Part shown: positions 17,389 to 46,126 of the stretch, piece by piece
Numbering within the stretch: the stretch's first letter is position 1
Layout of the letters: each line of letters opens with the position of its first letter
Assembly (NCBI GenBank): GCA_039802005.1
Contig: JBDRVV010000022.1
Coordinates: 1-46,347, forward strand
Direction of reading: 5' to 3'
DNA: 46,347 nucleotides
Origin: a candidate division WOR-3 bacterium
GTDB lineage: Bacteria > Hydrothermota > Tepidihabitantia > SM23-42 > JAOAFX01
Program-made: the position numbers and the translations under genes
The notes under the pieces: model-generated
Database searches by the model: none
What the model was told of the DNA's origin: nothing
The model's input: the letters and a program-made list of their open reading frames with translations, nothing else

Positions 17389-18408
17389 ATGCCGAAAGGA
17401 TTATTATCCTTCATCAAGTGTGCGGGTTGAGCAAGCAAGATTTCTAAGGCGCAGTTAGCGAAAGCACTTTCACATTTACCGGGAATTGTAGACCCTAATT
17501 TACTCGTTGGGTTGAATACAGCTGATGATGCGGGTGTCTATAAAATAAGTGATAATTTTGCACTCGTTTATACGGTTGATGTTCTTGCTCCAGTCGTAGA
17601 CGACCCATATCTCTTCGGGATGGTTGCAGCAACGAATTGTATCTCAGATATCTACGCAATGGGCGGTGAGCCAAAACTGGCGCTCAATATCGTTGGATTC
17701 CCGGGTAATGGCGACCCCGAGATACTCGGTGAAATCTTAAGGGGTGGTCAAACAAAGGCAAAGGAGGCCGGTGTGACTATCTGCGGTGGCCATACTTTTA
17801 ATTCTGAAGGGATAATGTATGGACTTTCGGTCATCGGTTATATCAATCCCCAGAAGATTGTCACGAATGCAAATGCGAAACCAGGCGACGTAATCCTTCT
17901 TACCAAGCCAATCGGCGTGGGCACGATTATCCAAGCAACCCTTCTTGATAAAGCAGAGGGAATAGATCTGAAGCCCGTTTTTGAAGGAATGACCACTCTT
18001 AATAAAAATGCATCACAGGTAATGCAGGAAGTTGGTGTTGATGCCGCGACTGATATAACTGGTTATGGACTTGTTGGGCATTTAGTGGAAATGGCTGAGG
18101 CGAGCAATGCCGGTATTGAGCTGTATGCATCCAAAATACCCGTTTATCCCGGGGCTATTGAAATTTTAAAGAGTGGTATTGTTGAACCCGGTATCACAAT
18201 GAATATTAAATCTTTTTCAGACCGGGTTGTGAAAGGGAATATAAGCACGGAGATTGGCAATTTGGTTTTTGGTTCTGAGACCTCAGGCGGTCTGGCAATT
18301 GTTATGCCTGAGGAAAAAGTTAATTTATTTATTGAAAAATATCAAAGATCAGTCAGAGATATTGGTCGCATAACAAAAGAACATCCCGGAATATTAAAAA
18401 TCATTTAG
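17389..18408 (+). CDS. selD: Selenide, water dikinase (selenophosphate synthetase), selenoprotein
   Basis: Makes selenophosphate from selenide and ATP, the selenium donor for selenocysteine. 339 aa if the in-frame TGA at 17428-17430 is read as Sec. The N-terminus reads KCAGUASKIS: Sec14 sits where E. coli SelD has catalytic C17, and K17 matches its essential K20. The rest is canonical: LNTADDAGVYKI, YTVDVLAPVVDDPYLFG, CISDIYAMGGEPKLALN, GQTKAKEAGVTICGGHT, DITGYGLVGHLVEMAE. Ribosome site GGGGGTG precedes ATG 17389. A simple ORF finder would start at 17512 and lose the catalytic N-terminus. A hairpin follows the UGA at the right distance. Confidence 0.95.
17441..17463 (+). promoter_or_regulatory. 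Bacterial SECIS-like hairpin in selD
   Basis: CTAA (17444-17447) pairs with TTAG (17455-17458), extended by TTT/AAA across a two-base bulge. The loop GGCGCAG begins with GG, 17 nt after the UGA. Weaker than the other hairpins in this set but at a permitted distance. Confidence 0.5.
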
Positions 18409-23543: not shown

Positions 23544-26228
23544 TTATCGCATTATAATAAACTTCTTTGTCTTAGAATAACCCTCGGTTTCAAATCTGCA
23601 GAAATAGACACCTGATGAAACTTTGCGATTGTTATCATCAAATCCATTCCAGAAGATTTTGTAATCACCACTCTTTTCAATACCATCCCTTAATCTCTTC
23701 ACCTGCCGACCCACGACATCATAAACAATAAGACTTATTTTTTGTGCCTTAGATAATGAGTAGGTAATAGTTAAATTATTTTTACTCGGCACAGGAAAGA
23801 TATTAAAACTTATTGATTTCAATGGAGATTTTATCTCTGCTACATAATTTATCGGCGCGAATCTATAAATATTTCCTTTTATCGGGGGCGAATACTGGGA
23901 AGGATAGACAATCCAGCGCTCACCCACCTGGGGAAATGTCCCGTGTGCCCTAAGTCTAATCACTTCACCACATAACATAATAACATTGTCGTATCCTGGA
24001 CGAAAGGTATCAGACGGTGGTGAATTGGTAGGTAGAAAACGAACGAAACACCAGCCATAGGCACTATCCGGATTTAAACCATAACGATTATATGGTTTAT
24101 ATGGGATTGTATCGTTGTAATTTAAGTCCGTAACCAGTAGTGTCAATCCACCACAAGGCTTAATAACCCAGTCAAGTTGTAAGGTAGAACCACGATATGC
24201 CCACCAGGTATAATTACTGGTACCGTAGAGATAAATAGAATCCTCAGGATAACTTCCAACTACAACCCTTACTGAATCATTATGGAAATTTGTCTGCCTT
24301 ATTACATTTGGGCTGGGTGTAAATGCCCTTATTGAAAAACCATCAACAATTGGAGAGTAATCATTGAAATAATAATATCGGAAATAGGCATTTTTTAACG
24401 AATAGGTATCAAGGACAACCTGACCGGTATTCAAATCCGTAAGTTTATAGATATATTCTGGATAGTGTAGGTAGGTTCCTTCTTTTATCCTTTGATATTG
24501 CAGGAACTCAAGTTCGTAATTATGCCCGGTGAGGTTTTCAGGCTGATGAACCAAACAGGCAAGATTAACAATATTATTTATCCCACTGATTTGATTTATC
24601 GGTCCACCCGAGATTTGATTTTTAAGATATACAGGAATAGTCTCCGCAACGGTAAATTCTTCATCATGTGTCTCAACAACCAGTAATCCTGAACCATTAC
24701 GATAGGATAGGGTATTCCAGATAAAATGGCTATCATTTGGCTCATTTAAGGCAATAGAAACAAAACTTGTATCATACTGGCTCTTGAAATAGATATTGAT
24801 GTAAAGTGAGTCCTGGAATTCCGGGTCGCGCGCAAACCAGTTAATATCAAGCTCACGAGCAAGCGTATCAACGGTATAAGAAGAATGATAATTTTTTGGT
24901 GAATAAACCTTAAAATATGGTGGAGCATTACCCGGATTGTTGATTATAAAATAATTATTAGAGCCATCAAATCCGAAAGTGATTGTATCATAAACCATAA
25001 TCAATATTTTCCCTAAAACACAATCTAAACATGAATCGGTATGCCAGAAAAAGTTTCCGGAATTTGGTTGGTTCAATGCAATGGTATCAAGTCCGTGTTC
25101 TGATTTAAAGAAAATATCAACAAGAAGGGGATTATTGGTTGAAGAATTTGCCGTATAATTAATTTGATAGATACCCGAGACGACTTCACCACCATTGGGA
25201 TTCACTACGGTGACATTATGCAGAGGTGTTTCAAAGAGTGTTTGTGCCTTATCTGCCTTATATTCCATCTCGGGGCTCGGTGGCACTGAATCATGACTCG
25301 CAATCAATGCCCAGTCAAGAATAATGCTATCACCGGGAGGTAGATTCCAGACACCTGCTGACATCAAAATCCTTTGGTCATCGGGTGGGAACCACACGGT
25401 ATCAAATGGCTCATAATTGCCATTCTGGAAATTATACCCAGCCATTACCATATACCTTTGCCAATCTATATTAGGCGCAAAGTTTAGTGTCAACCTTTTG
25501 AAACAAGAAAGGGAATAAGGGGAAAGTAATTTGAAGCCAATCATCCCTCTTGAGTCCCAGCCAGGTTCTGGTTGTTCCTGCCAGCCGAAAAACAATTTTC
25601 TTGGTAAGTCTATGCCCCCACGGTCATTGGCAGCCGGTCCAACTTCATCTCCAATATCATAGTCCATACAGATTCCTGCATATATATTGTTAATTGTATA
25701 ATTTGTATCATTCTTGATAATATATTTAAAAAACAGAATATCATTTGCCCAATCTTTGGGCCAGACAAAGGTCTTTAGAGTGACAGTACTACCAATCGGT
25801 CTTGTATCATTGGGTATATGCTGAGTCGGGTCAAAGTCATGAAAGACTGCATAGCCATCTTCCATTGAAACAGAAGTAAATGGATAATCATTATCAAAGG
25901 AAAAATATACTTTCCACCGAGGATCGATATAACTTGAATATGGAATACCGGGTGTAAATTCAGACACTCCCCCTGACGGATCATAACCAATAGTAACCAA
26001 TGTATCTCCATTGGGTGCAATCGCACCAATCCAGATTCCAGCACCAAAGATATAATTATGTCCTGAATTTCTGGGCCAGAAAGCACCTGTGTTTCCGGCC
26101 TTAGACTGCCCGAACTTGCCATAATTGGATATTGCTACCTCCCATTGGGCAATTGTGTTGTACCGAATATCCCAGTAAGAATAAATCAGGAGTGGGGATA
26201 TTATTGCAACTATAAAAATTCTTTTCAT
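23544..26228 (-). CDS. Large secreted protein with T9SS C-terminal sorting domain
   Basis: 894 aa. Signal peptide (KRIFIVAIISPLLIYSYW). No enzyme motif is visible. The N-terminal 330 residues look like a large beta domain, followed by Ig-like units beginning VTVVNPNGGEVVSGIYQINY, a common stress-bearing repeat in secreted proteins of such lineages. The last 80 residues form a type A sorting domain: FPVPSKNNLTITYSL, ISLIVYDVVGRQVK, GVYFCRFETEGYSKTKKFI. ATG 26228 is chosen because AAAGG sits properly in front of it; the upstream ATG at 26237 overlaps the ribosome site. It probably ends on the cell surface. Confidence 0.82.
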   Translation of the reverse strand: MKRIFIVAIISPLLIYSYWDIRYNTIAQWEVAISNYGKFGQSKAGNTGAFWPRNSGHNYIFGAGIWIGAIAPNGDTLVTIGYDPSGGVSEFTPGIPYSSYIDPRWKVYFSFDNDYPFTSVSMEDGYAVFHDFDPTQHIPNDTRPIGSTVTLKTFVWPKDWANDILFFKYIIKNDTNYTINNIYAGICMDYDIGDEVGPAANDRGGIDLPRKLFFGWQEQPEPGWDSRGMIGFKLLSPYSLSCFKRLTLNFAPNIDWQRYMVMAGYNFQNGNYEPFDTVWFPPDDQRILMSAGVWNLPPGDSIILDWALIASHDSVPPSPEMEYKADKAQTLFETPLHNVTVVNPNGGEVVSGIYQINYTANSSTNNPLLVDIFFKSEHGLDTIALNQPNSGNFFWHTDSCLDCVLGKILIMVYDTITFGFDGSNNYFIINNPGNAPPYFKVYSPKNYHSSYTVDTLARELDINWFARDPEFQDSLYINIYFKSQYDTSFVSIALNEPNDSHFIWNTLSYRNGSGLLVVETHDEEFTVAETIPVYLKNQISGGPINQISGINNIVNLACLVHQPENLTGHNYELEFLQYQRIKEGTYLHYPEYIYKLTDLNTGQVVLDTYSLKNAYFRYYYFNDYSPIVDGFSIRAFTPSPNVIRQTNFHNDSVRVVVGSYPEDSIYLYGTSNYTWWAYRGSTLQLDWVIKPCGGLTLLVTDLNYNDTIPYKPYNRYGLNPDSAYGWCFVRFLPTNSPPSDTFRPGYDNVIMLCGEVIRLRAHGTFPQVGERWIVYPSQYSPPIKGNIYRFAPINYVAEIKSPLKSISFNIFPVPSKNNLTITYSLSKAQKISLIVYDVVGRQVKRLRDGIEKSGDYKIFWNGFDDNNRKVSSGVYFCRFETEGYSKTKKFIIMR

Positions 26229-26237
26229 AATAAACAT

Positions 26238-36851: not shown

Positions 36852-39602
36852 ATGATAGGTTTGTGTTCAATAATGTTGTTGGCATTATTGCCACCCATTC
36901 CGGGTAAAATGACCCCGGAACTCGTAAAAATCTTAAATAACACACCACCACAGGAAAAAGTTTTTGTGATCGTCCATATGAATACAGAATATCCGTACGA
37001 TGCGATTGAAGGAATGACACCACAGGAAAAGTGCGATGTTTTTGAGTCCGTGGCAATGAATTCGCAGCGCGATGTAGTGAATTATCTCAATTCTTTATCG
37101 AAAGACAAGGCAGAAGTTGTTAGACAATTCTGGATTTTCAATGGATTTCATTTGAAGGCAACAAAGGATGTGATTGAAGAACTGGCAAAGAGGGATGATA
37201 TATGGTGCATTTCTCATAATGGAACGATTCAATTGGATGCTACCATGGGCGAAGAGGTCACTGAACCGAGGACTCCGGAATGGAATATTACTAAAATTAT
37301 GGCAGAATCATGCTGGGCAGCAGGATTCAATGGAACCGGAATAATAATCGGTCATATTGATACCGGGGTTTATACTGACCATCCCGCGCTCGCCGGCAAA
37401 TGGCTTTCACCATACTGGCACGATGGTGTCAGCGGTCAATCAACACCTTATGATGACCATAATCATGGAACCCATACAATGGGCACAATCTGTGGCGGTG
37501 ATGGTCCTGGTCCATTTACATATGATATTGGCGTTGCCTATGGTGCAAAATTCATTCCTACAAAAGCGTTTGATGCTAATGGCTCAGGTCAATTCTCCTG
37601 GATAGATGCCTGTATGCAGTATCTGGCAAATTTAAAACAGAGCGGCGTTGATATCCGGGTGATTGGAAATTCCTGGGGCAATAGTAATGGTTCATATACT
37701 GGCTTCTGGACCGCAGTCTTGAACTGGAAGAATCTTGGTGTATTCCCCGTATTTTCTAATGGTAATTCAGGACCTGGTGCAGGAACAGTTGGTTCACCGG
37801 CAAGTTATCCAATAACGATTGGTGTTGGTGCAACTGATAACGGCGACAATATCGCGTCTTTCTCATCGCGTGGACCATCACCGAATGTCAGTCCAATAAA
37901 TGACCCACAATACTGGTACTATTCAACCTGGAATTTCTTAAAACCCGATGTGTCAGCACCCGGTGTCAATGTCAATTCCTCATTGAGAACCGGTGGTTAC
38001 GGAACAATGAGCGGAACATCAATGGCGTCACCACATGTAACTGGTGGAACCGCAGTTTTATTGCAGAAGAATAACGGGCTTACTGTGGGTGACCTTTATG
38101 ATTTATTCCGCAACTACTGTGATCAACCTTCTGCTGGTGCACCATATCCGAATAATAATTATGGTTGGGGCAGAATAAACTTGTGGCGTTCATTACAGGC
38201 AGTTCCAACCAGCAACCGACCGAATGTAGTATTGAGCCGGACAAATATTGTTAATGACAACAATGGCAATGGAAAACTTGATCCGGGTGAAAATGCAGGT
38301 ATTGTGACCTATGTGAAGAATACAGGCGGTGTAGTAGCAACCAATGTGCAGGGAAGATTAAGGACAACATCGCCTTATATCACTATAACCGATTCAATGT
38401 ACACATATGGCACGATAAATTCTGGTGATAGTGCAAATAATGTCTCCGACCCGTATGATATAAGTGTCCATGCCTCAACACCACCCGGGCATATGGCGAA
38501 TTTCCAGCTGGTGCTCATTGCTGCAGAGACTACCTGGGTAAGAACTTTCTCATATCAGGTTGGTGTTGCACCTGGTGAAATTATATGGGGTCCAAAATCC
38601 CTACCCAATTTCCCAACAAACAATTTTATCTATGGTGTTGCCTATGACCGCACCGGTGATAGAATCTATGTGGTAGATTTCTTGTCTACCCAAATCCGTT
38701 ACTATTCCTCAGATAGTTTTGTAACATACTACGGTGCAATCACTGCACCACAGGATTCTGGAGTTGACCTGGCATACTCCCGGTATGATGACGCATTATA
38801 CTTCGCCAATTATCCGCAGAAACTGGTATGGAAGCTGAATAAAAATACAGGCGCTGTTCTTCGTCAGTTCAATAATCCCGCGAATGATTATCCGGTGGGT
38901 ATTGCCTTCCGTCCGCCTAATACAATGTGGTATGCAGATAGAAGAACCGCTCTTGGTGGTACTCAGTTAATTTATATTGGAGATACCCTTGGAACAGCAA
39001 CACAATATAACAGTCCGATTCAGGGATACTACAATACCCGCTGTCTGGCTTATGACTCTTTGGGCAATTCCTTTGTAAATGTCCAGACCTGGTTCAATTC
39101 AAGCCAGGCACTTGATAGTGTTGGTGTTGTTGAATTCACGGGCACACCACCTACATTTACTGGCAAGAAATTTCTTTTAAATCCTGGTTGGAATATCCGT
39201 GGTATTGAGGCAGACCCGAGAGACGGTAATTACTGGGTTACGATTGTGCAAATCAGTGGCTCCTATGTTAATCAAATTGTAAAGGTCAAAGGTTTCTACA
39301 CACCTCTCACCCCGGTTGAAGAATCCGAAAAAGAGAATGTTGCTAATTGGAAACTACTTAAGGTTGTTCCAAACCCAGCAAAGAGTAATCTTACATTTTA
39401 CATCAATCCTAACAATATAAAGCATAACTACTTGAGCATTTACGATATCAGCGGTCGTCTTGTAGCAAAAGTCAATTTTGATAAAGGAGCGAGTGTAATC
39501 AACTGGAATCCACGGAATTCTTCTCTTGCCGATGGAATATACTTTGCAATGCTGGAGAAGGACGATGGAATAATAACCGAAAAATTCGTCCTTACGCGCT
39601 AA
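36852..39602 (+). CDS. Secreted subtilisin-like serine protease (S8) with T9SS sorting domain
   Basis: 916 aa. Signal-like start (GLCSIMLLALLPPIPG) lacking basic residues. Residues about 30-125 resemble an inhibitor prodomain (EKVFVIVHMNTEYPYDAIEG). The catalytic domain has D170 in GHIDTGVYTDHP, H205 in NHGTHTMGTI and S390 in SGTSMASPHVTGG. Next are a CARDB-like module with a calcium-loop-like DNNGNGKLDPGEN (about 465-580), a beta-propeller-like region with repeated YDRTGDRIYVVD units, and a C-terminal sorting domain (VVPNPAKSNLTFYI, LSIYDISGRLVAK). ATG follows directly after an in-frame TAA, so no earlier start exists. Confidence 0.93.
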   Translation: MIGLCSIMLLALLPPIPGKMTPELVKILNNTPPQEKVFVIVHMNTEYPYDAIEGMTPQEKCDVFESVAMNSQRDVVNYLNSLSKDKAEVVRQFWIFNGFHLKATKDVIEELAKRDDIWCISHNGTIQLDATMGEEVTEPRTPEWNITKIMAESCWAAGFNGTGIIIGHIDTGVYTDHPALAGKWLSPYWHDGVSGQSTPYDDHNHGTHTMGTICGGDGPGPFTYDIGVAYGAKFIPTKAFDANGSGQFSWIDACMQYLANLKQSGVDIRVIGNSWGNSNGSYTGFWTAVLNWKNLGVFPVFSNGNSGPGAGTVGSPASYPITIGVGATDNGDNIASFSSRGPSPNVSPINDPQYWYYSTWNFLKPDVSAPGVNVNSSLRTGGYGTMSGTSMASPHVTGGTAVLLQKNNGLTVGDLYDLFRNYCDQPSAGAPYPNNNYGWGRINLWRSLQAVPTSNRPNVVLSRTNIVNDNNGNGKLDPGENAGIVTYVKNTGGVVATNVQGRLRTTSPYITITDSMYTYGTINSGDSANNVSDPYDISVHASTPPGHMANFQLVLIAAETTWVRTFSYQVGVAPGEIIWGPKSLPNFPTNNFIYGVAYDRTGDRIYVVDFLSTQIRYYSSDSFVTYYGAITAPQDSGVDLAYSRYDDALYFANYPQKLVWKLNKNTGAVLRQFNNPANDYPVGIAFRPPNTMWYADRRTALGGTQLIYIGDTLGTATQYNSPIQGYYNTRCLAYDSLGNSFVNVQTWFNSSQALDSVGVVEFTGTPPTFTGKKFLLNPGWNIRGIEADPRDGNYWVTIVQISGSYVNQIVKVKGFYTPLTPVEESEKENVANWKLLKVVPNPAKSNLTFYINPNNIKHNYLSIYDISGRLVAKVNFDKGASVINWNPRNSSLADGIYFAMLEKDDGIITEKFVLTR

Positions 39603-39655: not shown

Positions 39656-39683
39656 TTGACATTGTAAAAATAATGAATATACT
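39656..39683 (+). promoter_or_regulatory. Promoter of the first UxxC selenoprotein gene
   Basis: TTGACA (39656-39661), 16-nt spacer, TATACT (39678-39683), with AAAGGGG before ATG 39708. Confidence 0.8.
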
Positions 39684-39707: not shown

Positions 39708-40742
39708 ATGAAAATTGCTAAGTCAGTTGTAATACTATCGTTTTTTCTTATAATGCTCAATATTTCTTCTGGTGCACAAAGGGTTGTAGTTGCGGAGATG
39801 ATCGGCGACGAAACCTGAGGATCCTGTGCTGCGGCAAGCGGTGCGCTTGCTCAAATAGCTTTAAACTATCCCGGAAGGGTAGCAGCAATTGATGTTCACG
39901 ATAACCCAGCAGATTCTTTCTTCCTGCAAGAAGCATATAATAGAATCCGTTATTATCCACCACCATTTTACGGTATGTATATGCATCCCTGGCTCTGGTA
40001 TGATGGAAATCAACATGGCGGGACGAATTATTCTCAATGGGAATCTATGATTGTAAACCGTATGAACCAACCTGCACCGGTTACAATTTATCTTGATGGT
40101 GAATATTCACCGGGTAGTAATTCAGGGACTATTTATGCCACATATAAAAATGATTCTACCGCAACGATCAATGGAAGGGTAATCTTCGTTATAACTGAAG
40201 ATAGTCTATTTTATCCAGCACCCAATGGTGCATTATGGCATAGCAATGTACCCAGGGATTATATTCCCGACCATAATGGCACAACAGTCTCAATTCCACC
40301 GGGCGATTCAATTACAATAACTATGCCTTTTACCACCCATCCTAACTGGAATAAATCGCATTGCAAGATAAAAACATGGATTCAAAACGATGTAATGCAA
40401 CCTGATTCAACAAAGGAAATATGGCAGGGTGCGATAGTTAATCTACTTGAACTCGGTATTGAAGAAAATCCAGGCAAGAAGTGTGAAAAATTAAGTCTAC
40501 AGGTTTTCCCCAACCCCTGTCCGCGCACCGATGCCCTGCACTTCTATTTTCCATATCCAACCGACTACAAAATTTCAATATATGACTGCACCGGAAGGGA
40601 GATAAAGAATATTTCAGGTAATGCCAAATCGGTTAAATGGGATTTAAAAAACAACCAAGGGTATAAAGCTAAACCCGGTGTTTATTTTTACCGTTTTGTA
40701 GATAAAAAAATAATATTTTCTGGTAAATGTGTAATTGAGTAG
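39708..40742 (+). CDS. Omp28/thioredoxin-like secreted selenoprotein (UxxC), copy 1
   Basis: 344 aa with the in-frame TGA at 39816-39818 read as Sec37. A signal peptide (SVVILSFFLIMLNISSGA) is followed by RVVVAEMIGDETUGSCAAAS. Sec37 is in the place of the first cysteine of a CxxC redox motif, with C40 as partner. The thioredoxin-like part continues to about residue 120, and beta-sandwich segments follow (NDSTATINGRVIFVITEDS). The end is a T9SS sorting domain (QVFPNPCPRTDALHFYF, KISIYDCTGREIKN). The same layout occurs in copy 2 at 45128. It ends in TAG, not TGA. A hairpin with a GG-loop lies 15 nt after the UGA. Exact reaction unknown; a thiol-disulfide or peroxide-reducing role is inferred. 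Confidence 0.85.
39834..39850 (+). promoter_or_regulatory. Bacterial SECIS-like hairpin, UxxC copy 1
   Basis: GCAAGC (39834-39839), loop GGTGC, GCTTGC (39845-39850), a perfect 6-bp stem. The loop begins 21 nt after the UGA, with GG first. Confidence 0.75.
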
Positions 40743-40800
40743 AAGGAGGTGAAATACGAAAGACTCTATTAGAAAATTGATTATGAGCAAAGGGGGTATT

Positions 40801-42708
40801 ATGAAAATGTTGATTCCTATCTTTTTAATGATAGGTTTTGTTAGCGCTGGCAACTGGCTGATTAATGGCGATTTTGAGGAAGCACTCAACTCGGGCTGGA
40901 CTTCAACCCAGAGTGGCTCATATATCTACATTGACCGTGCAACAACCTATGAACCGGACCCGGATTATGAAGTGCGTGTGGAAAAAGGCTCAGGCAGTGG
41001 GTTTGCAACACTTTCTCAGACTATTGATATTACGACACCGAGTGAATTTACTTTTTCTACAAAGGCAAAGTTATATGCATATGATAATAATGCAGATACT
41101 CTGACTTACGCTGCCGCAGCAATAAGAATAATTTACCGTAATGCCACGGGTGCACTTCTTGGAGAAACCAGAATTTGCCAGTTCACTGCACCCTGTCCCT
41201 GGCAAAACACTTCAACAATCCATCTAATAACAGTTAGCGATTCACTCTGGCATAATTATTCATTCAATCTCCAGACTGAACTTGGAAATCTTCCCGGCGT
41301 CAATCCAGCAAATGTGAAAAAGGTAGAAATTGCGCTCTATGATACAACTGCCCACACTTGTTGAGGGGCTTCACAATTGGCGAAGGTCTTCGCCGATGAT
41401 GTAAAATTGAATTATTCTGGAACACAGCTCTATCTTACCTTCATTAAGTCTAAAGTCTATGACCCGAGCGGAAATAATAATGGTAGATTAGACCCAGGAG
41501 AGACAGCAAATATCACTGCTTTTCTAAAAAATATTGGTGGTGCGAATTTTACAAATCTAAATTCTACACTCTCAACAACGAGTCCTTATATTACAGTCAC
41601 GGATAATTCTGGCTATTTTGGCACGATTCTTATTGACAGCACAAAGGAGAATATCTCTGACCCCTATGTTGTGAATGTCAGTGCCTCAACCCCGCAGGGA
41701 CATATTGCTCAATTCCGCTTGATAACAACCCAAGGGGCTTTTGTTGATACCTTTTTCTTTAGTCTCACGGTTGGTTCATATCATTATCTGGTCTGGAATC
41801 CTGACCCGACTGCCACGCCGGGACAGACAATGCATAATATCTTGACATCCCTCGGCTACAGTGGTCTATATTCAACAACACTGCCTACGACCGACCTCAG
41901 TGTGTATCGCGCAATTTTGGTTTGTGTGGGAATCTACCCTAATAATTATGTAATTGGTGCATCAAGCCCCGAGGCAACAGCACTCGTCAACTATGTCAAT
42001 AGCGGTGGCAGACTCTATCTTGAGGGCGGTGACGTCTGGTATTATGACCCGTTGATAGGCGGCTATAACTTTTGCTCACTTTTTGGAATCAACGCAACTG
42101 CTGATGGAAGTTATAATTTAGGACCAATAGAAGGGCAGCCAGGAACATTTACAAACCAGATGTATTTTAATTATTCGGGTGAGAATAATTATATGGACTG
42201 GATTAGTCCGACTGGAACTGGTTCTTTCTTAATATTTAAAGATGTTGACCAGAGTTATGATTGTGGTGTTGCCCGCGATGCCGGAACATATAGGACTGTG
42301 GGAACTTCTTTTGAACTTGGTGCACTCGTAGATGGTGGGGGTGTCTCTACCCGTGCTGCCTTGCTTGACTCCATCCTCCATTTCTTCGGAATATTCCAAG
42401 TACCTGTTGAAGAGAATAAGCAAGAAGGGCTCCAAAAGATATCTTTCCAGGTAACACCGAATCCATTCCAGAATAACTGCGTGGTTAAATTCGAAATTCG
42501 AAATCCGAAATCCGAAATTTCACTCAAGATTTTTGATGCAACAGGACGGTTGATAAAATCATTTAACCATTTAACCAGTTACCAATTTAATAAAATCGTG
42601 TGGTCTGGTGACGATGAAATCGGCCGCAAGGTGCCCGCAGGTATTTATTTCGTGCGGTTGGAAACGGGCGGTCAAAAATATATTGAGAAGGTAATAAAGA
42701 TAGAATAG
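40801..42708 (+). CDS. Secreted multidomain selenoprotein with jelly-roll domain and Cys-Sec pair
   Basis: 635 aa with in-frame TGA at 41362-41364 read as Sec188. A signal peptide (MLIPIFLMIGFVSA) is followed by a CBM-like jelly-roll domain (NWLINGDFEEALNSGW; YDTTAHTCUGASQLAK; FADDVKL), in which the Sec follows a cysteine directly (TCUGA). Then come a CARDB-like module with a GNNNGRLDPGE loop, related to the one in the subtilase gene; a ThuA/glutaminase-like segment (LVWNPDPTATPGQ, VNYVNSGGRLYLEGGDVWYY); and a C-terminal sorting domain (FQVTPNPFQNNCVVKFEI, ISLKIFDATGRLIK). Start ATG 40801 has AAAGGGGG before it. It ends in TAG. A 6-bp GG-loop hairpin lies 20 nt after the UGA. Confidence 0.75.
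41379..41394 (+). promoter_or_regulatory. Bacterial SECIS-like hairpin, jelly-roll selenoprotein
   Basis: GGCGAA (41379-41384), loop GGTC, TTCGCC (41389-41394), a perfect 6-bp stem, loop beginning 20 nt after the UGA with GG. Confidence 0.72.
42487..42520 (+). repeat. Period-7 repeat, copy 2, inside a sorting domain
   Basis: Units near AAATTCG / AAATCCG repeat every 7 nt and are translated in frame as EIRNPKSEI between the first and second strands of the sorting domain. Related to 1-64 and 44808-44875. Confidence 0.75.
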
Positions 42709-42715
42709 TTAGAAA

Positions 42716-42747
42716 TCAGGAAGGGAGTATAAATACTCCCTTCCTGA
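42716..42747 (+). terminator. Terminator-like perfect inverted repeat
   Basis: TCAGGAAGGGAGTAT (42716-42730), AA, ATACTCCCTTCCTGA (42733-42747). A 15-bp perfect stem followed by AAAATCTTTT. It stands between two same-strand selenoprotein genes and may act on both strands. Confidence 0.75.
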
Positions 42748-42788
42748 AAATCTTTTATAATTGGACTTAAGTCTAAAAAGGGGGTTTT

Positions 42789-45077
42789 ATGGGCAGTAAG
42801 AAACTTATCTGGATTGTTTTAATTGTCGCCACTGCATCATTTGCCCAGTGGCAGACAATAGGTCCCTATGGTGGTTATGTCCGCTCAGTGGTTGTATCAC
42901 AAACCAATGACAATATTGTCTATGCTGCATCTTATGCTAATCCCACTGTAGTTGCAAAATCCACAAATGGTGGTTCAACCTGGACCACAGTTGGTTCAAT
43001 ACCAAATCAGGCATATTGTATGGCAATAGACCCAACGAATGATAATAAACTATATGCGGGGAGTGGACATGTAATGTATCGTTCAACTGATGGCGGTGTG
43101 AATTGGCTATCAACTACTATGAACAATAAATATATCTACGGCATAGCGGTCCATCCAACAACGCCTACAACAATTTGCGCCGCGGGTATGAGTTATACAG
43201 GAACAAAATGGGGGCTTGCATTTTTCAAAAGCACAGATTCCGGTGTAAACTGGACAACCACTGTAATGGATACTTCAGGCTCTTCAAACTATGGATATTG
43301 TCTCGCAATTGACCGTACGAATCCCAATACGATTTATGTGGGTGGCTATTCTTATACCACATCTTACATACCCAGAATTTACAAATCCACAAATGGAGGC
43401 ACTAACTGGATAGATGTGTCTACTGATACAGTATTTCAGAACGCTTATTATATTTACTCTATGGCTGTTCATCCAACGAATTCTAACATAGTCTATGCTG
43501 GTACTTATTTAAAAGGTATTATGCGTTCAACCAATGGCGGAAATTCCTGGACAAAAGTTTCTACTAATTACTACAACTATAGTATGGCAACGAGTATAGC
43601 ATCACCTGATATCGCTTACTCTGGTTGTTATGGTGAGGTTTACAAAACGACAAATGCCGGCTTGTCCTGGACATCTGTAAGCTCGGGTTTGAGTGGAACT
43701 TCCTTCTATGGCCTTGCCGCAAGTGCACAGAATGCTTCTAATGTATATGCTGGAAATAACAAAGGTATGTTTAAGACAACAACCGGCGGGACTTCCTGGG
43801 TAAGTATCAATAACAATTTGAATATGGGTTCTATCCTTTCTTTTGCAAATGCGCCTTCTTCACCTTCAACGATCTATACTTCCTTTGCTGAAGTTGGTGT
43901 ATATAAAACAACAAATTCAGGAACAGATTGGATTCAATTGCCGACACCGGTTGGCTGCGGAAATATCTGTGAATTTGCGGTTGCGTATAACAATCCTAAT
44001 ATCATATATGCCTTAGAAGGAAGTGGTTGAGGGAATGCCGAGCTCTACAAGAGCACAGACGGCGGGTCCGTCTGGTCAAATGCCCTTGATGCATTTTATA
44101 CCGATGGCGGGGCAATGGCAATTGATCCGAATAATAGTTCAATCCTTTATACCGGTGGCTATATATACAATGGTTCAACTTATGTAATGGCAGTCTCAAA
44201 ATCAACCGATGGTGGAACAACATGGGAAAGGGATACACTAACAACAGATTATTCTATGTGTTATGCACTCGCGATAGATAGAAGTAATTCTAATGTTGTT
44301 TATGCCGGCGGCTATAATGGTTATCTTTTCAAAACAACCAATGGTGGTGTTAACTGGACTCTTTCTAATACTGGATTGAGTGGAACAGTCTATGATATTA
44401 AGGTCGCTTCAACCAAGGCAAACACAGTCTATGCGGGAACCTCTTCGGGTGTTTACAAATCAACAAATGCGGGTGCCAGTTGGACAAGTACAGGTTTATC
44501 ACAAAATGTTCAGGCAGTCTTGATAAATCCTTCAAATGAAAACGAAATATATGCCGCAACAAGTAATGGTATCTACAAGAGCACTACTGGCGGTGGTGGA
44601 TGGACATTGATGAATACTGGACTATTAAATACAAATACAACTTCTTTAGGAATTTACCCAAATAACTGGTTGTTCTGCGGAACAAATGGCACAGGAATGT
44701 ATCGATGGAATATACAAGTTGGCGCGGAAGAATTTGAGGAGATTGGGAAGAGTATCTCCTTACAGATCACACCAAATCCATTCAGGAACTACTGCGTAGT
44801 TAAGTTCCAAATCCCAAGCACCAAATCCCGAATTCCAAACAAATACGCAATCCGCAATCCGAAATCCGAAATTTCTTTGAGGATCTATGATATTTCGGGT
44901 CGCGTTGTTAAGTCATTTAATCTTGAATCAGGTATCTTGAATCATGAATCCAGTATCACCTGGTTTGGCGATGATAATGAAGGTCATAAGGTTCCTACGG
45001 GTATCTACTTTGTAAAACTTGATTCTGGTGAGTCCACTAAAATTGAGAAAGTAATTCTACTTAAAGGAAACAATTAG
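42789..45077 (+). CDS. Secreted beta-propeller (BNR/sortilin-like repeat) selenoprotein with T9SS sorting domain
   Basis: 762 aa with in-frame TGA at 44028-44030 read as Sec414 in LEGSGUGNAELYKSTDGGS. Signal peptide (LIWIVLIVATASFA). About ten repeats of the form VYAG...GVYKSTNGG.SW give a beta-propeller of the sortilin/BNR type, as in many secreted proteins. The frame stays open before and after the UGA, and the repeats keep their phase, which supports readthrough. The end is a sorting domain (LQITPNPFRNYCVVKFQI; ISLRIYDISGRVVK) with a period-7 insert. The UGA could alternatively be a mutated GGA (Gly). The SECIS-like hairpin is somewhat farther away (32 nt) than for the other genes. Confidence 0.65.
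44056..44074 (+). promoter_or_regulatory. Bacterial SECIS-like hairpin, beta-propeller gene
   Basis: CAGACGG (44056-44062), loop CGGGT, CCGTCTG (44068-44074), a perfect 7-bp stem. The loop begins 32 nt after the UGA, near the upper end of accepted distances, with G in second position. A smaller GCTCT-ACA-AGAGC stem lies between them (44042-44054). Confidence 0.5.
44808..44875 (+). repeat. Period-7 repeat, copy 3, inside a sorting domain
   Basis: Units such as AAATCCC, AAATACG, CAATCCG and AAATCCG repeat every 7 nt, translated in frame as residues ending AIRNPKSEI. It lies at the same point of the sorting domain as copy 2, only longer. Confidence 0.72.
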
Positions 45078-45081
45078 TTAT

Positions 45082-45109
45082 TGACATAAACTAAAAAACA
45101 AGTAAAATT
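45082..45109 (+). promoter_or_regulatory. Promoter of the second UxxC selenoprotein gene
   Basis: TTGACA (45082-45087), 16-nt spacer, TAAAAT (45104-45109), with GAAAGGGGG before ATG 45128. Confidence 0.75.
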
Positions 45110-45127
45110 ATAGTGAAAGGGGGTTTC

Positions 45128-46126
45128 ATGTCAAAATACTTATTAATATTGCTGGGCATTTCGCTGCTCGGTTTTTCTGCCCAGCGGGTGGTTTTGTGTG
45201 AAGAGTTTTATCAGGAGAGCTGATCCTCCTGTGTTGCTGCCAGCGGTACGCTGGACAATATCTGTGTGCAATATCCCACACGCATTGCCGCAATTGAGAT
45301 GCATCTAAATAGCAGCTATCCGTTATATTGTCCAGAGGCATATGCCCGGATGCAATACTACCCAAGTTCAAATTGGTATACGCCCAACCTTATTCTTGAT
45401 GGCACGCCAAAAGGGAGCGGTTATACATCCTGGCAATCATACATTGTTACACGGATGAATCAACCTGCACCGATGCGTATCTCAATGTGGGGGACTTATG
45501 GCTCTGGTTCTGGCACAATCTATGCCCGATTTCGTAATGATTCAACAGCATCAGTCACTGCCTATGTATATTTTGTTATCACTGAAGATAGTATCTATTA
45601 TGTTACACCCTATGGTGACCAGTGGCATAATCATGTTGCACGCGATTATGTCCCAAACCAGATCGGCCAACAAGTGACAATTCCAGCGGGTGATTCAGTA
45701 ACGGTCTCGCAAAATTTCACAATCCAATCAGGCTGGAATGTCAATCGCTGCAACATTGTAACCTGGATACAGAATAATTCAACACGCGAAGTGTATCAGG
45801 CGGGATTTATTAAGGTAACCAACCTCACAGTAGTTGAAGAATTTAATAATGAAAATGTAGTATCAAAAATCTCTCCCACCCCGAATCCCTGTGTAAATGG
45901 AACGAGCTTTCAGTTTAACATCAATAAGGGTGTTGAATGGAAGATTGTGATTTTTGATGCTCTTGGTCGCGAGATGAAAAGGATTGAAGGAAATGGCACG
46001 GGTAAAACTCAAACTGTAGAATGGAATCTTCTGGATAATAATAACAATCGTGTTAAATCTGGTGTTTATTTCTACAGACTAATCAGTTCGGAACTGAATG
46101 CGAATGGAAAGATTGTAGTAAGGTAA
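45128..46126 (+). CDS. Omp28/thioredoxin-like secreted selenoprotein (UxxC), copy 2
   Basis: 332 aa with in-frame TGA at 45221-45223 read as Sec32. A signal peptide (YLLILLGISLLGFSA) is followed by VVLCEEFYQESUSSCVAASG: Sec32 and C35 form the UxxC motif. WYTPNLILDG supplies the expected cis-proline segment of a thioredoxin fold around residue 86, and a beta-sandwich (YVYFVITEDSIYYV) follows. The end is a T9SS sorting domain (PTPNPCVNGTSFQFNI; KIVIFDALGREMKR). Paralogue of the gene at 39708; the two share AASG after the motif, RVA(I)AI..H and the ITEDS strand. It ends in TAA. A finder ignoring UGA would start at 45266 and miss the active site. Confidence 0.87.
45240..45254 (+). promoter_or_regulatory. 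Bacterial SECIS-like hairpin, UxxC copy 2
   Basis: CCAGC (45240-45244), loop GGTAC, GCTGG (45250-45254). The loop begins 21 nt after the UGA, the same distance as in copy 1. Confidence 0.72.

Follow-up and report, generated by a model that had tools for sequence, protein, structure and literature searches.

On a 46,347-nucleotide stretch of DNA (contig JBDRVV010000022.1, hereafter the window) from an uncultured member of the bacterial phylum WOR-3, four neighboring genes, A to D, appear to encode selenoproteins that would be completed by SelB-dependent readthrough of one UGA codon each, guided by a selenocysteine insertion sequence (SECIS), and then exported to the surface by a route resembling the type IX secretion system (T9SS). 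We assign this reading a probability of roughly 0.88. WOR-3 corresponds to Caldifarciminota in the current NCBI taxonomy, and named relatives carry the label candidate division WOR-3. A and D very probably are selenoprotein genes, with hardly any doubt left, and B and C very probably are as well. The proteins are probably, with good odds, sent to the cell surface, and probably, although with less assurance and least for B and C, do redox work there.

Reading frames and conservation of the UGA codons

A preliminary description of this DNA, drawn from its letters alone, had reported four genes with exactly one in-frame UGA, an intact frame on both sides and a TAA or TAG at the end. This was borne out: A, B, C and D contain one in-frame TGA apiece and no internal TAA or TAG, end with TAG (A, B, C) or TAA (D), and are each preceded by an AGGGG-type ribosome-binding site. 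Past the UGA the frames stay open for 307 (A), 447 (B), 348 (C) and 300 (D) codons, and the chance of such frames at the stop density of the window is 3e-8 to 6e-12 each. TGA is the normal stop of seven of the 27 other genes in the window, with only 3–15 open codons beyond it; TGA is thus not generally reassigned here, and genome-wide reassignment was rejected on the ground that TGA serves as a normal stop.

A genome of the same genus (G069, contig C7) carries all four genes in equal order and TGA is aligned to TGA in 4/4 of them. The ratio of nonsynonymous to synonymous substitution rates (Ka/Ks) past the UGA amounts to 0.062 for A, 0.079 for B, 0.079 for C and 0.157 for D. The sequence downstream of the UGA is under purifying selection, and coding is conserved on both sides of the in-frame UGA in all four genes.

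Homologues were compared across 147 genomes of WOR-3/Caldifarciminota. In the Omp28 family, to which A and D are related, the UGA column holds selenocysteine (Sec, U) in 58 sequences, Cys in 16 and other residues in none, and the second Cys of the UxxC motif is kept in 58/58 UGA forms. Alignment of A and D to Cys paralogues of their own genome, which read TWCTYC and ARCVYC, puts the UGA opposite the leading Cys of CxxC. For B and C the UGA is retained in nearly all homologues having the site. A search with the N-terminal domain of B returned about 110 copies in 50 genomes among the matches listed, and TGA stands at the end of the domain in all full-length copies listed except one; no TGA is present in matches confined to the downstream domain. 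The alignment column shows U in 41/41 rows covering the site (the row of locus L162 is shifted by one column), and the preceding residue is Cys in 33/40. The column of C holds U in 35 sequences; its non-UGA paralogues lack the loop in which the residue lies. Relatives had been proposed as a check, with random residues or frameshifts as the adverse outcome, and the comparison came out in favor of recoding: the Omp28 family has Sec or Cys and no random residues, and B and C keep the UGA within intact frames.

SECIS-like hairpins downstream of the UGA codons

The hairpins with GG-type loops noted earlier at 20–32 nucleotides behind the UGA codons were found again, with GG/GU loops at 22 (A), 20 (B), 32 (C) and 22 (D) nucleotides. 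We applied the published bacterial SECIS (bSECIS) model, which has a loop of 3–9 nucleotides, G in the first two loop positions and a distance of 16–37 nucleotides after the UGA. The stem energy limit was −5 (published: −7.5), identical for all families and controls, and the 16–37 nucleotide range was used throughout, a narrower range of 12–30 nucleotides missing C. The model is fitted by 126 of 133 UGA forms (A/D 56/58, B 40/40, C 30/35), as against 2/16 Cys forms of the A/D family and 4–6% of controls taken after Cys, Trp, Gly and Ala codons of the same genes. The loop reads GGUC in 40/40 B homologues.

The hairpins also covary. Pairs changed on both sides make up 5/7 (A/D), 4/6 (B) and 8/11 (C), and the number of double-change cells (38, 21 and 16, respectively) was reached in 0/500 shuffles each; structures slid along the alignment gave far fewer. 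Since the shuffles leave relatedness in, most weight rests on the slid structures and on how the Cys forms differ. Minimum free energy z-scores alone separate UGA forms (−1.26) from Cys forms (−0.7) only modestly.

Selenocysteine machinery

Absence of selA, selB or selC had been named as an outcome that would speak against selenoproteins, and all three are present in the genome of the window (2.54 Mb, 97.6% complete). The genes selC for tRNA-Sec (C1:122518, 78 bits), selB (C1:122620, 640 residues, 344 bits) and selA (C1:124539, 541 bits) are adjacent on its contig C1. The set is completed by selD, which lies within the window as described before and is moreover a Sec gene itself: the open reading frame called with translation table 11 lacks the N-terminus, and readthrough of the UGA at 17428 moves the start to 17389 and gives MPKGLLSFIKCAGUASKIS. 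The CAGUASK form resembles the usual Sec form of SelD. Together with those of A to D, the window thus has five Sec codons.

Among the 147 genomes, selA or selC occurs in 57 of the 60 with a listed UGA form versus 7 of the 87 without (Fisher p = 6e-29, an optimistic value because the genomes are related). The set of 60 was compiled by hand and predates the B-domain search, which added further genomes. In four genomes (G067, G084, G093, G094) these genes are located within a few kb of selC or selA on one contig; in loci L166–L168 they lie at similarly short distances, a few kb at most, from sel genes. Counts per genome are lower bounds taken from the best matches listed. In the genome of the window, UGA genes of the A/D type number at least four and those of types B and C at least three each, with selD in addition; the corresponding figures for G067 are at least seven, five and five.

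Some side observations concern the same genes. One genome (G105, contig C1) holds at least eight UGA-bearing B-type domains and at least seven UGA-bearing C-type propellers among the matches listed. Four UGA-bearing B and C genes are spread over contigs C11, C21 and C49 of G066, a genome that yielded no selA and no clear selC. In two genomes (G093:C59:75237-76658, G094:C107:2815-4281) the selA match is broken into two parts that share a single open frame of some 500 residues, which points to an insertion halfway along SelA.

Sorting domains and predicted export

Signal peptides and sorting domains had been claimed for all four proteins. Signal-peptide-like starts, with a K-rich beginning, a hydrophobic core and a cleavage-like site, were seen by inspection. 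A C-terminal T9SS type A sorting domain (TIGR04183, cut-off 23 bits) scores 30–42.5 bits in A to D, and the domain was found in 20/20 A/D and 27/28 B and C homologues scanned. The genome of the window matches SprA in four stretches (best E 1.3e-33), and SprA homologues occur in 145/147 genomes of the phylum. We consider T9SS export of A to D probable because of the sorting domains and the SprA homologue.

In the proposed course of events, SelB carrying Sec-tRNA(Sec) would bind the stem-loop 20–32 nucleotides past each UGA and insert Sec, upon which the ribosome would read 300–447 further codons up to TAG or TAA. The signal peptide would direct each product into the periplasm, where the type A domain, encoded downstream of the UGA, would hand it to a T9SS-like translocon for transfer to the cell surface. 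As the export tag would be present only in the Sec-inserted protein, surface display would depend on selenium.

The protein families

A and D are paralogous to each other and to two more UGA genes of the same genome (on C4 and C13). The Omp28 profile (PF11551) gives 55.5 bits for D, above the gathering cut-off of 34.9, and 34.7 for A, just below it. An AlphaFold2 model of D (predicted local distance difference test score, pLDDT, 89.9) has HBP35 of Porphyromonas gingivalis as its nearest structure in the PDB (5y1a, TM 0.80, E 3.7e-13), with which it shares the fold, a thioredoxin motif near the N-terminus and a T9SS C-terminal domain. HBP35 differs in having Cys48/Cys51 instead of Sec and has 16% sequence identity. 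It has been reported as a surface-located cargo of the T9SS (Por) (PMC3120885) whose thioredoxin activity requires the two Cys of its CxxC motif (PMC2907840). Cys forms of Omp28 are also encoded in the genome of the window: the paralogues L001 and L004 show CxxC in place of the UxxC of A and D, and contain no Sec. Judged by fold, motif and tail, A and D most likely act as surface thioredoxin-type oxidoreductases, that is, as Sec versions of HBP35, in which the selenol would attack as the first residue of UxxC and the Cys would resolve.

Further UGA-encoded UxxC proteins lie beside such clusters (L024:9284-11746, L167:17182-17763, L168:16696-17277); with their motifs LFTEDGUPYC, FFTEDGUIFC and LLTDDGUAFC they resemble another Omp28/thioredoxin-like Sec branch. 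A Cys homologue of A/D (STSCDYC, L033:861-1592) is located on a contig labeled Euryarchaeota, by transfer or binning error.

The N-terminal domain of B has a weak likeness to CBM_4_9 (9/27 homologues, best E 8e-4), and its Sec often adjoins a Cys, forming a CU motif. C matches propellers of the GH74/sortilin/Ycf48 type in a profile comparison with solved structures (PDB 2cn3, E 1.5e-36), and its UGA sits in a GSGUG loop. A Cys is found 24 residues upstream of the Sec in 35/35 UGA forms of C, and in the non-UGA paralogues it is replaced, mainly by Ser or Ala, the single exception being a fragment that ends just upstream of the site. The Sec of C is probably paired with this invariant Cys as a redox pair, because the two are retained and lost together. 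From this pairing and from the Sec next to Cys in B, both proteins probably are thiol/selenol redox or metal-binding modules, built on propeller and carbohydrate-binding-like scaffolds.

Contrary observations and alternative explanations

Several observations weigh against Sec insertion and surface export as proposed here. Neither for B, among the WOR-3 matches, nor for C, whose non-UGA paralogues are without the loop, was a clear Cys homologue found. The sole non-UGA copy of B (L202) reads SCPPP, in an alignment ambiguous by one residue, so that its one Cys could correspond to either the C or the U. The structure model of B is poor (pLDDT 42.6), and its fold matches were set aside for this reason. 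Three metagenome-assembled genomes (MAGs; G066, G072 and G075, 79–91% complete) have UGA forms; no selA and no clear selC turned up in any of them. The UGA of selD is not followed by a hairpin that satisfies the simple SECIS model. Finally, the signal peptides were judged by eye, and SprA was the sole T9SS component searched for.

Of the competing explanations, the one that survives best concerns function only: B and C may be selenoproteins whose Sec serves at the surface to bind metals or metalloids such as Hg, Cu, As or Te and does not perform redox catalysis. A CU motif without a thioredoxin fold would suit this, and other CU-motif selenoproteins are metal-linked (SaoL, MbdU; PMC13188914 Table 1), but no metal-resistance genes were noted beside B and C in the loci read and the Cys/Sec pair of C is also compatible with a redox dyad. 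We regard metal binding as the sole role as unlikely. That the selenoproteins do not travel beyond the periplasm or outer membrane, with the T9SS-like tail as another kind of anchor, is less probable still. The restriction to SprA leaves some room for it, and no experimental work on WOR-3 type A tails was found; on the other hand, the tail is retained in 47/48 homologues, SprA is nearly universal in the phylum, and HBP35 has an equal layout for surface display (PMC3120885).

Translation of the UGA as another amino acid such as Trp or Gly, by reassignment or by a suppressor tRNA, is very improbable. It draws on the missing Cys forms of B and C and on the loop of C, which by eye resembles the WG of a different repeat in the propeller; Trp at this position is nevertheless not supported, as homologues either keep the UGA or lack the loop. 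Contradicting it in general are the role of TGA as a normal stop with short extensions, the presence of the Sec machinery and its co-occurrence with the UGA forms, the covarying SECIS-like hairpins in all three families, and the exchange of the A/D position with Cys only. That the UGAs simply terminate translation or arose as sequencing errors, the downstream frames being pseudogene remnants, is already contradicted by conservation and keeps next to no probability: a lone in-frame UGA in a MAG contig would be weak evidence, as MAGs contain errors, but here UGA occupies the equal codon in 58 (A/D), about 100 (B) and 35 (C) homologues, many of them from independent assemblies, Ka/Ks past it is low, sorting domains are located beyond it, and the Omp28 family has Cys at this codon.

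Relation to known selenoproteins

The preliminary description had considered a cluster of surface-directed selenoproteins to be undescribed. This holds for B, C and the T9SS-tagged cluster and not for the idea of an Omp28-related selenoprotein, since UxxC proteins of that kind are known, namely GOS_C (PMC2398784; PMC13188914 Table 1; NCBIfam NF045500). A and D share the thioredoxin-like fold, UxxC and an Omp28-like domain with it, and 20/20 A/D homologues scanned score with NF045500. With 44 (A) and 56.9 bits (D) they remain below the curated cut-off of 200, which makes them a separate branch, relatives and not members. They also differ by their T9SS type A tail and their place in a multi-family cluster; the papers cited for GOS_C do not describe it as T9SS cargo (PMC2398784, PMC13188914).

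The selenoprotein catalogue, with its 119 families, contains neither B nor C, and no selenoprotein is listed there for the GH74-type propeller fold (PMC13188914 Table 1), in which the GUG loop and the −24 Cys are missing from non-UGA paralogues. Several unrelated selenoprotein families per cluster are also found in the Sao and Tso operons (PMC13188914), which comprise other families, whereas the A–D cluster carries T9SS sorting domains. Known outer-membrane selenoproteins include a TonB-dependent receptor and an MtrB-like barrel (PMC13188914 Table 1). A literature search, with most subscription journals outside its scope, returned no paper relevantly joining selenoproteins with WOR-3, T9SS or Omp28. 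By comparison of sequences, then, the T9SS-tagged cluster is new, A and D are a new branch of known Omp28-related selenoproteins, and B and C appear to be new families.

Two selenoprotein families would thereby be added on folds without catalogued Sec, a CBM-like sandwich and a GH74-type propeller, and Sec would be used at large scale, phylum-wide, in proteins tagged with sorting domains. The cluster and its relatives also offer naturally occurring pairs of Sec and Cys forms, and a Cys partner linked to Sec, for testing. Standard gene calls split or shorten many secreted WOR-3 proteins at the UGA. It is tempting to go further and speculate, quite tentatively, that Caldifarciminota have a dedicated selenium-dependent surface redox system in which a genome would encode as many as some 17 T9SS-type selenoproteins from three families, of which the CBM-like CU and propeller GUG proteins would be new and almost Sec-only, and which might jointly pass electrons or detoxify oxidants or metals outside the cell, their display depending on selenium. 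A WOR-3 isolate exists (strain sy37; PMC12285271), and a test in living cells may be possible if it has these genes.

Other features of the window

Coordinates are collected in Table 1. Besides the genes and their recoding elements, it lists two sigma-70-like promoter sites, a terminator-like hairpin and a small covarying hairpin within C.

Table 1. Positions of the predicted genes and elements in the window
Feature	Position	Strand	Remarks
selD (selenide, water dikinase)	17389..18408	+	Itself with Sec, CAGUASK; UGA 17428-17430
Promoter site upstream of A	39656..39683	+	Sigma-70-like, TTGACA-16-TATACT; consensus match only
Gene A	39708..40742	+	Omp28/HBP35-like thioredoxin-fold selenoprotein (predicted), 344 residues, ETUGSC (UxxC)
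Sec codon (UGA) of A	39816..39818	+	Aligned with first Cys of CxxC in Cys homologues
SECIS-like hairpin of A	39834..39850	+	GCAAGCG GUG CGCUUGC
Sorting domain of A	40503..40736	+	T9SS type A, TIGR04183, 33.1 bits
Gene B	40801..42708	+	Putative new selenoprotein family, 635 residues; N-terminal domain CBM_4_9-like and containing the CU motif, then a middle domain and a T9SS tail
Sec codon (UGA) of B	41362..41364	+	HTCUGAS
SECIS-like hairpin of B	41379..41394	+	GGCGAA GGUC UUCGCC
Sorting domain of B	42451..42699	+	T9SS type A, TIGR04183, 42.5 bits
Terminator-like hairpin between B and C	42716..42747	+	Strong; 14 pairs, then U-rich
Gene C	42789..45077	+	Putative new selenoprotein family, 762 residues; GH74/sortilin/Ycf48-type beta-propeller, GSGUG loop, T9SS tail
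Sec codon (UGA) of C	44028..44030	+	Candidate partner Cys at −24 residues
Small covarying hairpin of C	44042..44054	+	Upstream of the main hairpin
SECIS-like hairpin of C	44056..44074	+	CAGACGG CGGGU CCGUCUG; loop 32 nucleotides past UGA
Sorting domain of C	44859..45056	+	T9SS type A, TIGR04183, 30 bits
Promoter site upstream of D	45081..45108	+	Sigma-70-like, TTGACA-16-TAAAAT; consensus match only
Gene D	45128..46126	+	Omp28/HBP35-like selenoprotein (predicted), 332 residues, ESUSSC (UxxC); paralogue of A
Sec codon (UGA) of D	45221..45223	+	
SECIS-like hairpin of D	45240..45254	+	CCAGCG GUA CGCUGG
Sorting domain of D	45881..46120	+	T9SS type A, TIGR04183, 38.4 bits

Near the cluster, the window also encodes a subtilase (36852-39602) and a second large protein (23544-26237), both with T9SS type A tails.

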